From: Frankia tisae
Lineage (GTDB): Bacteria; Actinomycetota; Actinomycetes; Frankiales; Frankiaceae
Reading direction: 5' to 3'
NCBI RefSeq assembly: GCF_025403405.1
Contig: NZ_JANEZT010000008.1
Location: 1 to 43,729 of the forward strand
DNA length: 43,729 nucleotides
Shown: positions 6,604 through 40,585 of the stretch, piece after piece
Layout: each line of letters opens with the position of its first letter
Position numbering within the stretch: the first letter of the stretch is position 1
Program-made: the position numbers and the translations under genes
The notes under the pieces: model-generated
Databases searched by the model: none
Seen by the model: the letters and a program-made list of their open reading frames with translations, nothing else
Told to the model about the DNA's origin: nothing

Positions 6604-6912
6604 TTACTCCTCGCCCCGGTCCCGGCGGCCGGACCTGGCGGCCCGGCGCTGCTCGCGCAGTCGGCGCAGCCGCCGGACGAGCATCGGATCCGTGATCAGC
6701 GCCGCGTCCGAGTCGATCAGCCGGTTGAGGATCTGGTAGTAGCGCGTCGAGGACAGACCGAACTCGGCGCGGATCGCCTCCTCCTTCGCCCCCGGATGGC
6801 GCCACCAGCCCTGCTCGAAGCGAAGGACGCGCCGGTCGCGGTCGGACAGCTCCGCGGCCGGTGTGCTCGTCCGCCCGGGTTCCTCGGGCGGCAGGGGTTG
6901 AGCTGCCTGCAC
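6604..6912 (-). CDS. DUF3263 domain protein (small predicted HTH protein)
   Basis: A 102-aa protein with the DUF3263 signature: LSDRDRRVLRFEQGWWRHPG, KEEAIRAEFGLSSTRYYQIL and a basic tail LVRRLRRLREQRR. The middle looks like a helix-turn-helix, so DNA binding is plausible but not shown. The start is GTG 6912: GAGGAGG lies seven bases upstream, while the open frame continues to 6972 without a ribosome site. It is followed eight bases later by the LytR_C gene, to which it is coupled. DUF3263-LytR_C pairing near groEL is a recurrent actinobacterial neighbourhood from my family knowledge; no function is established. Confidence 0.85.
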   Translation of the reverse strand: MQAAQPLPPEEPGRTSTPAAELSDRDRRVLRFEQGWWRHPGAKEEAIRAEFGLSSTRYYQILNRLIDSDAALITDPMLVRRLRRLREQRRAARSGRRDRGEE

Positions 6913-6979
6913 AGCGGGACCTCCTCGGGACGCGGCCGGGACGATGAGCACGGTCGGACGCAGCCACGCCACGCCCGGT

Positions 6980-7480
6980 ATGGTTCGCCGCCCACTATTT
7001 CACCCCGAGGGTCCGACATCCCCGGTCGTCTCCGGGAACACACATTCCGGGCGGCCATCGCACCGGCGGTCCCGCAGACGAGGCAGACGAAGTCCTCCGT
7101 GGTGCGGGACCGCCGTGCGCGGCGACGGGTACACCAACCACTGCCCATCATGCCTGTGCTCGCGCCACGTCGACGTCCATCCCGGCGACCGCACGGCCGG
7201 CTGCGGTGGGGTGATGCGTCCGGTGGCCGTCGAGACCCGGACGCACGACGTGATCCTCACTCATGCCTGCGAGCGCTGCGGCCACCGCCGGCGAAACCGC
7301 ACCGCGCCGGCCGACGACCGTGACGCCCTGCTCGCCGTCGCCGCCGCAGCGGCACAGGCGGCGGTGTTCTCCACCACCGAAGTGGCGTTCCCCGCGATGG
7401 GATCTCTGCTGGGGCCGGACTCCGCCGGCGCCCGGCCACGGCGCCGCACCGCCCGCGCCCGCACTGGCCGCGGCCGCTGA
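6980..7480 (+). pseudogene. RNHCP-domain zinc protein with an internally inverted segment
   Basis: The frame encodes most of an RNHCP protein: GDGYTNHCPSCLCSRHVDVH, PGDRTAGCGGVMRPV and ILTHACERCGHRRRNR, with a family-typical tail DDRDALLAVAAA. The expected first zinc knuckle (F-x-C-x-x-C-G) is missing and replaced by RRRGRRSPPWCG. The bases 7064-7115 are flanked by perfect 13-bp inverted repeats; turning this segment round restores TTEDFVCLVCGTAVRGDGY in the same frame on both sides. In the present orientation the frame stays open, but the N-terminal metal site is destroyed. The start is uncertain: ATG 6980 is the nearest in frame and has no ribosome site. This may be a switchable gene, a fixed inversion mutation or a sequencing/assembly error. 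RNHCP function is unknown. Confidence 0.8.
7064..7115. repeat. Invertible-looking segment: 13-bp inverted repeats, 26-bp core
   Basis: Left arm CGGCGGTCCCGCA (7064-7076), core 7077-7102, right arm TGCGGGACCGCCG (7103-7115). The arms are perfect reverse complements. The core read on the minus strand gives ACG GAG GAC TTC GTC TGC CTC GTC, the missing start of the RNHCP domain. No recombinase gene lies nearby. Confidence 0.9.
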
Positions 7481-7805
7481 GCGGCCCGCGTCCCGGTCGG
7501 GTGCGTCCCGGTCGGGTGCGTCCCGGTCGGGTGTGCCAGGTCGGGTGTGCCTGGTTGGGCAGCCGCACGAGTTGCCGAGAGCTCGCACGATCGGTGGCCT
7601 TGACCGTGGTCACCCTCGGCAACTCGGCGACCGGCACCGTCCGGTGGCAGCCCTGGGCCCGAGGGCCCGGGATGCCGCCCGGCGCGGCCCGTTCGGGGCC
7701 GGCGCGGGTCACCTCGCGCCGGCGAGTACCCCGTCGGTCGGGGTGGCGACCCGTGGGGGAAGGGACGCCTGGTTCAGGCTGAACTGTGGAGCGGCAGGCG
7801 GGCCC
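7481..7805. other. Intergenic gap between convergent RNHCP and dehydrogenase genes
   Basis: No gene seen. It holds the 15-bp tandem repeat at 7491-7535 and a GC-rich GGGCCC-GA-GGGCCC element near 7655-7670 that might act as a terminator. The rest is unremarkable. Confidence 0.6.
7491..7535. repeat. 15-bp tandem repeat, three copies
   Basis: TCCCGGTCGGGTGCG at 7491 and 7506, then TCCCGGTCGGGTGTG at 7521, followed by decayed partial copies to about 7560 (AGGTCGGGTGTGCC, TGGTTGGGC). Each unit includes a small CCCG/CGGG inverted repeat. It lies just after the RNHCP stop codon. Confidence 0.85.
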
Positions 7806-9062
<1,257 letters not shown>

Positions 9063-9165
9063 AGGCACCTCCGCGGCGCATTTCGAGTCACCCTCCGCCG
9101 CCGAACGCGCCGCCGGGTTCGTCGGCCACGGCGCGCTCCGTTGCGTGCCGTGGCAGTGACTCGAT

Positions 9166-25130: not shown

Positions 25131-25172
25131 CAGGTGAGCCCCGGAACCTGGTGGGATTCCGGGGCTCACCTG
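25131..25172. terminator. Bidirectional hairpin terminator between TSUP gene and clpC
   Basis: CAGGTGAGCCCCGGAA (25131-25146) and TTCCGGGGCTCACCTG (25157-25172) form a perfect 16-bp stem with a 10-base loop, placed between two convergent genes (stops at 25108 and 25206). Confidence 0.9.
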
Positions 25173-40413: not shown

Positions 40414-40491
40414 CCGTCGTCGACTGATCCCGCTGACCGGCTGCCGCTGACCGGCTACCGGGCTCGGGTCGTTGGGCGGGGAGCTGGGTTG

Positions 40492-40544
40492 CCTTGCCGT
40501 TTGGGGGGGGCGAAACAGGCGCCGAGGCCCCCAAAACGGCAAGG
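40492..40544. terminator. Hairpin terminator between the membrane protein gene and purB
   Basis: CCTTGCCGTTT plus a G-run (40492-40510) pairs with CCCCC-AAAA-CGGCAAGG (40528-40544): about 16 bp with one bulged A and a 20-base loop. It sits between convergent genes (stops at 40413 and 40586). Confidence 0.8.
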
Positions 40545-40548
40545 AAGT

Positions 40549-40574
40549 CCGGGGCCCGGCCGGCCGGGCCCCGG
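40549..40574. terminator. 26-bp perfect palindrome after purB
   Basis: CCGGGGCCCGGCC (40549-40561) is directly followed by its reverse complement GGCCGGGCCCCGG (40562-40574), with no loop. It begins four bases after the previous hairpin and lies 11 bases past the purB stop codon, so it probably ends purB transcription. All bases are G or C. Confidence 0.75.
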
Positions 40575-40585
40575 GACTTGCCGGC

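Follow-up and report, generated by a model that had tools for sequence, protein, structure and literature searches.

How does a gene come to carry the start of its own coding sequence back to front, between perfect inverted repeats? The question is raised by an RNHCP-domain gene in a member of Frankia, a genus of nitrogen-fixing symbionts of woody plants. The gene lies in the window analyzed here, the whole stretch of 43,729 nt that makes up bases 1-43729 of contig C871 in a draft genome of 7.07 Mb and 882 contigs. An earlier note on this DNA had described a segment at 7064-7115 in which a 26-bp core is enclosed by perfect 13-bp inverted repeats, and had offered three readings of it: an ON/OFF switch, an inversion by replication slippage, or a sequence artefact. 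The description itself holds. The arms are 100% complementary across a 26-nt spacer, the RNHCP residues TTEDFVCLVCG are found in a minus-strand frame (6717-7151), the open plus-strand frame of 178 aa includes PPWCGTAVRGDGYTNHCPSCLCSRHVD, and inversion of the segment in silico yields TTEDFVCLVCGTAVRGDGYTNHCP in one continuous frame. The accompanying statement that the plus-strand frame lacks the F-x-C-x-x-C-G start is correct in part: Cys14 and all residues before it are gone, but the right arm includes TGC GGG, which keeps Cys17 and Gly18. We conclude that a mutation of a familiar type, or else a sequencing error, accounts for the locus, and that a reversible switch is very unlikely. With moderate confidence, we attribute it to a real mutation in the strain, which the sequence comparisons suggest was one template switch in reverse orientation, made up of two jumps.

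The footprint can be read base by base against the closest relative (G002, also a draft), which is 97% identical upstream of the gene. The order in G002 is CATCGCACCGGCGG, then 103 bp, then TGC GGG ACC GCC GTG, and the 103 bp hold a -10-like element (TACGCT), a GTG start and the codons V-T-R-R-F-T-R-T-T-E-D-F-V-C-L-V. The window is native up to 7069 and native again from 7103, its locus is 70 bp shorter than that of G002, and the 45 nt of 7064-7108 are identical to the start region of the gene itself, read in reverse complement. Because CGGCGG and TGCGGG occur in both the native and the inverted copies, there is a 6-bp microhomology at each switch point. An exhaustive, gapless four-point fit explains 127 bp with one mismatch and no gaps; 49 placements fit equally well, their tracts measuring 33-45 bp, and the residual mismatch is a synonymous TAC/TAT difference downstream. 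By comparison, the best linear alignment to G002 contains 11 mismatches and four gaps totalling 70 bases, and alignment after flipping 52 bp contains two mismatches and one 70-bp gap. A simple 52-bp inversion was rejected on account of this gap and of a mismatch that remains in the newly made arm.

The 13-bp repeat is by itself ordinary for such a GC-rich window, which contains 21 inverted pairs of at least 13 nt separated by at most 120 nt, six of them perfect. It is the exact match to the G002 gene, over 45 nt in reverse complement, that goes beyond chance. A single base bears on the origin of the arms: position 7070 is T, while natively G follows CGGCGG and A precedes CCCGCA. As T matches neither native base and complements the right arm, it is best explained if the right arm served as the template for the left, and the 13-bp repeat would consequently be a product of the event. 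The hairpin is strong: the DNA-fold z is -3.68 over 81 nt of the window, compared with -0.41 over 111 nt of native sequence in G002.

The polarity of the change follows from the relatives. The protein is matched at E <= 0.001 in 34 of the 97 genomes searched, the source genome included, and the core was inspected in 29 of the resulting 33 relatives (G020, G041, G070 and G071, for which no locus was fetched, were left out). The alignment with relatives proposed in the earlier note gives a uniform picture: the block is forward and directly precedes the NHCP core in all 29, each from outside the species of the source strain. The change is thus polarized from the native to the window form, and an ancestral inverted state was rejected. 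Across the block, the longest exact inverted repeat in the 29 relatives is 8 bp, while the window, used as a positive control, returns 13 (spacers of 15-60 nt; 56 of the 123 bases scanned in locus L033 are N). The exact repeat across the core in G002 is only 6 bp long, and this native pair, CCCGCA/TGCGGG, brackets the core in both G002 and G011. A DNA search shows 7059-7108 matching at least 10 genomes, among the matches listed, in the orientation opposite to that of the flanks; the multiple alignment of the locus comprises eight sequences of relatives, two of them from the same genome. Within the genus, which includes G008, G011 and G012, matches occur in 11 of 13 genomes, counting the source, the two exceptions being G008 and G012. 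In G012, the match to the neighboring LytR_C stretch breaks off at a contig end. The closest named matches to the gene are from Frankia torreyi, Frankia sp. AgB32 and Pseudofrankia asymbiotica. RNHCP is not universal, with 63 of the 97 genomes lacking a match, some of those genomes being incomplete.

We propose the following course of events. Synthesis would have left its template at CGGCGG, where the 6-bp microhomology would have annealed the strand to CCGCCG inside the gene, approximately 110 bp away. From there 33-45 nt would have been copied backwards, until a second 6-bp microhomology, TGCGGG, allowed the return to the native strand. The net outcome would be the replacement of 103 bp of native sequence by a 33-bp inverted copy, together with the creation of the perfect 13-bp repeat. 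A template located approximately 110 bp ahead points to a switch that was probably made across the fork and not within a nascent hairpin. The strand and direction of synthesis, and the setting of the event in a living cell, are what we infer from the footprint. Among the readings offered earlier, a replication-type event is supported, in the form of a template switch with a deletion and not of a flip between pre-existing repeats.

Events of this type are rare in the sequence aligned. A scan for inverted-template candidates (at least 20 bp, at least 90%, within 300 bp) revealed two in 197,222 bp aligned to G002, a total contributed by 11 of the 12 contigs submitted, as C44 produced no alignment. 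One is interior and corresponds to the RNHCP locus, and the other lies at the end of contig C453. The reverse comparison, with G002 as the query, returned the same RNHCP locus only. In the C453 candidate (locus L173, bases 1-148), bases 1-53 are the reverse complement of bases 96-148 (98%), and the match to G002 is unidirectional from base 45; this fold-back may be an artefact of the same draft, introduced during assembly or amplification.

The change deprived the gene of its native 5' elements: the window has neither the -10-like element nor the GTG start, and lacks codons 1-16, with Cys14 among them. In 20 of 27 relatives a TAnnnT hexamer precedes the start codon by no more than 16 nt (none was seen in the other seven), and in 18 of the 27 it stands exactly 6 nt before GTG/ATG, a position that suggests a conserved leaderless promoter in Frankiaceae. 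Examples of the hexamer occur upstream of the RNHCP gene in loci L007, L008 and L009. The lost stretch has no other match anywhere in the assembly at E <= 0.001, on which ground an intact copy elsewhere in the assembly was rejected. Because the frame opening at 6944 begins with intergenic DNA and the inverted copy, no functional product would be expected from it, and the gene is most likely inactive, with its native start missing and its first zinc knuckle broken.

Membership in the family is still evident. The Pfam RNHCP profile (PF12647) matches the window with 90.4 bits, against a curated cut-off of 24, over profile positions 9-90 of 90, and the intact F. torreyi protein with 99.1 bits over positions 2-90; the window gene thus belongs to the family without the first profile positions and Cys14. 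The earlier note had considered that the family might lack an F-x-C-x-x-C block altogether. The N-terminal [FYW]-x-C-x-x-C block is, however, present in 89 of 89 distinct family cores (109 loci were given, of which eight were duplicates and 12 yielded no core with the pattern applied), and is incomplete in the window, where only C17 remains. Both C14 and C17 are invariant in the 31 aligned family members, out of 69 listed. A protein search finds a single RNHCP match in the source genome. Searches bearing on the function of the domain were negative: the best match of its sequence to solved structures has an E value of 0.67, the AlphaFold model of the F. torreyi protein (mean predicted local distance difference test score of 82.9) has no Foldseek match in the PDB at E <= 0.001, the best being 0.086, and a limited literature search on 'RNHCP' found two papers from chemistry and no biological one, which says nothing about the wider literature.

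The remaining 121 codons differ from G002 by nine synonymous and five nonsynonymous changes, with a ratio of nonsynonymous to synonymous rates (dN/dS) of 0.21. When the differences are placed with the help of G011 and the one-contig genome G003, two synonymous and no nonsynonymous changes fall on the source branch, three and two, respectively, on the G002 branch, and seven of the 14 are unplaced. With this ratio and an open frame, an old pseudogene was rejected. A tail without decay implies that the event is recent, indeed very recent, or that it did not take place in the organism at all.

Features of the RNHCP locus and its neighbors in the window
Feature	Position	Strand	Remarks
Microhomology 1, CGGCGG	7064..7069	+	Native upstream and, as reverse complement, within the gene; putative first switch point
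Inverted copy of gene start region, 33 bp	7070..7102	-	In every best placement; replaces 103 bp of G002
Microhomology 2, TGCGGG	7103..7108	+	Putative return to the native strand
Left arm of 13-bp inverted repeat	7064..7076	+	7070-7076 new, with the right arm as its best-supported template
26-bp core	7077..7102	-	Reverse complement of the stretch encoding T-T-E-D-F-V-C-L-V
Right arm	7103..7115	+	Native gene sequence (C-G-T-A-V); repeat scan, relatives
Truncated RNHCP gene within open frame, 178 aa	6944..7480	+	Open reading frame list, Pfam; native GTG/ATG start of relatives absent
Part of the 6944-7480 frame before the codon at 7103		+	Reading derives from intergenic sequence upstream and from the inverted copy
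RNHCP gene remainder	7115..7480	+	Open, no signs of decay; 121 codons compared with G002
DUF3263 protein, divergent neighbor	6604..6972	-	Stretch upstream of this gene aligns gap-free to G002 up to 7073
Glu/Leu/Phe/Val dehydrogenase, convergent neighbor	7806..9068	-	Family scan

The most serious competitor of a template switch in the strain is an artefact of amplification, library preparation or assembly: a polymerase may have jumped in vitro between nearby strands, and the resulting fold-back chimera may have entered the draft consensus, leaving the gene intact in the living strain. We regard this as a possible but less likely account, a real mutation being favored. Chimeras of multiple displacement amplification (MDA) carry the same signature of inverted sequence and deletion at short microhomology, according to the excerpted text of PMC1855051. 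Several observations weigh against our interpretation, most of them on the side of such a chimera. The event is known here from assembled sequence alone, in a draft of 882 contigs; the second candidate of the scan, the fold-back with which contig C453 opens, sits at the end of a contig, a place where artefacts of this kind are expected; the window is the shorter sequence at 10 of the 11 larger junctions with G002, and six of these 10 have an overlapping match of 8-19 bp, which would also fit faulty joins in a draft; an undecayed gene tail is also what an artefact would predict; and the single event surpasses a deletion followed by a flip by only one base and a chance 6-bp match, a narrow margin. 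By contrast, G002 is itself shorter than G003 in 17 of 25 length changes of at least 15 bp and longer in eight, so the excess of missing sequence is not special to the source genome. A chimera would also have to combine two jumps, regain the native strand cleanly after no more than 45 bp, and do so in the inner part of a contig that measures at least 43.7 kb. Among 20 further contig starts none shows a fold-back with separated arms (palindromes occur in two, as they do in two of 20 in G002), the RNHCP locus is the only interior case in the aligned sequence, and the assembly contains no other match to the lost stretch. Nor do the 11 larger junctions between the window and G002 point to an inversion-rich assembly: only one of them, that of the RNHCP locus, has an inverted-template match (minus strand, E <= 0.01).

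The same footprint could in principle be assembled from two events, a course that we consider improbable. A 70-bp deletion would have removed the -10-like element and the start, leaving by luck an inverted repeat around the core that matched at 12 of 13 positions, and a later template switch in the hairpin would have inverted the spacer and perfected the arm. This agrees with the alignment of the flipped window, which shows one 70-bp gap and one extra mismatch, and with the native CCCGCA/TGCGGG pair around the core in G002 and G011; inversion of spacers and homogenization of arms at short inverted repeats have been reported for yeast genes in the excerpted part of PMC8604942. This course nevertheless calls for two events and for CGGCGG to lie by chance at the edge of the deletion, whereas in the single template switch CGGCGG serves as the microhomology and no further base has to change. 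Less probable still is the reversible ON/OFF switch, in which the 52-bp segment would flip and toggle the first zinc knuckle. The perfect repeat, a frame that is open both ways and the strong hairpin are what such a switch would show, but the repeat is not conserved (at most 8 bp exact in the 29 relatives), these relatives share one orientation, and the source genome differs from them by a deletion too. Both orientations lack the native -10-like element and start, and flipping the segment does not restore the native locus. No family of the resolvase or integrase type was found in the 26 window open reading frames scanned, out of 184 mechanical frames of at least 90 aa, and the 26-bp spacer is far below the invertible segments of 266, 296 and 844 bp given in the excerpt of PMC5903667. 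We attach just as little probability to a recombinase-free variant, in which recurrent template switching at the new 13/26/13 hairpin would flip the core at a measurable rate and act as a polymerase-driven toggle of one metal-site cysteine.

Short-range template switching has been observed in eukaryotic and prokaryotic replication (PMC7954356, in excerpt), and template-switch mutation at quasipalindromes has been studied in E. coli (PMC7202029, in excerpt). As far as the excerpted text describes it, the four-point model of Loytynoja and Goldman (PMC7954356) shares with our locus the succession of native sequence, reverse-complement tract and native sequence, the perfect repeat in the descendant, a local template and a single event; the present case differs in affecting a bacterial coding gene, in its net deletion of 70 bp and in a template approximately 110 bp ahead. 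The E. coli mutations likewise arise by a bacterial template switch and end in a perfect inverted repeat. Those described in the available part of PMC7202029, however, perfect an imperfect repeat that already exists, whereas the exact repeat of the relatives at this site does not exceed 8 bp. The MDA chimeras share with the locus the inverted sequence, the intervening deletion and the short complementarity; unlike those in the excerpt of PMC1855051, the form seen here involves two jumps, regains the native strand within 45 bp and stands in an assembled contig. The likeness to site-specific inversion switches, as excerpted in PMC5903667, lies in a segment bordered by a 13-bp inverted repeat, such repeats typically being 10-20 nt long; the relatives, by contrast, show no conserved repeat or second orientation, the spacer is 26 bp and the native start is lost.

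Other repeats and length differences were recorded in the window. Directly 3' of the RNHCP stop codon, at 7489-7532, CGTCCCGGTCGGGT or a near-copy occurs three times with a spacing of 15 bp. Between the convergent RNHCP and glutamate-dehydrogenase-type genes, 7568-7626 forms a hairpin with 25-nt arms, 76% complementary, and a 9-nt loop, which looks like a terminator common to both genes. A perfect 16-nt inverted repeat with a 10-nt loop lies at 25131-25172, just 3' of a TauE/SafE-type gene. The region 40423-40582 measures 160 bp in the window and 27 bp in G002, and includes a perfect palindrome at 40549-40574 (19-nt overlapping arms). Over all length differences of at least 15 bp between the window and G002, 1799 bp are missing in the window and 258 bp in G002.

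The locus calls for caution in reading such structures: an inverted block between perfect repeats resembles a switch, yet the relatives show that here the repeat was made by the event. If the change is not real, it illustrates that one chimeric jump can mimic a pseudogene in a draft genome. If it is real, it would be a clean bacterial template switch that removed a promoter-like element and the start codon and disabled the gene in one step, with both microhomologies still readable.
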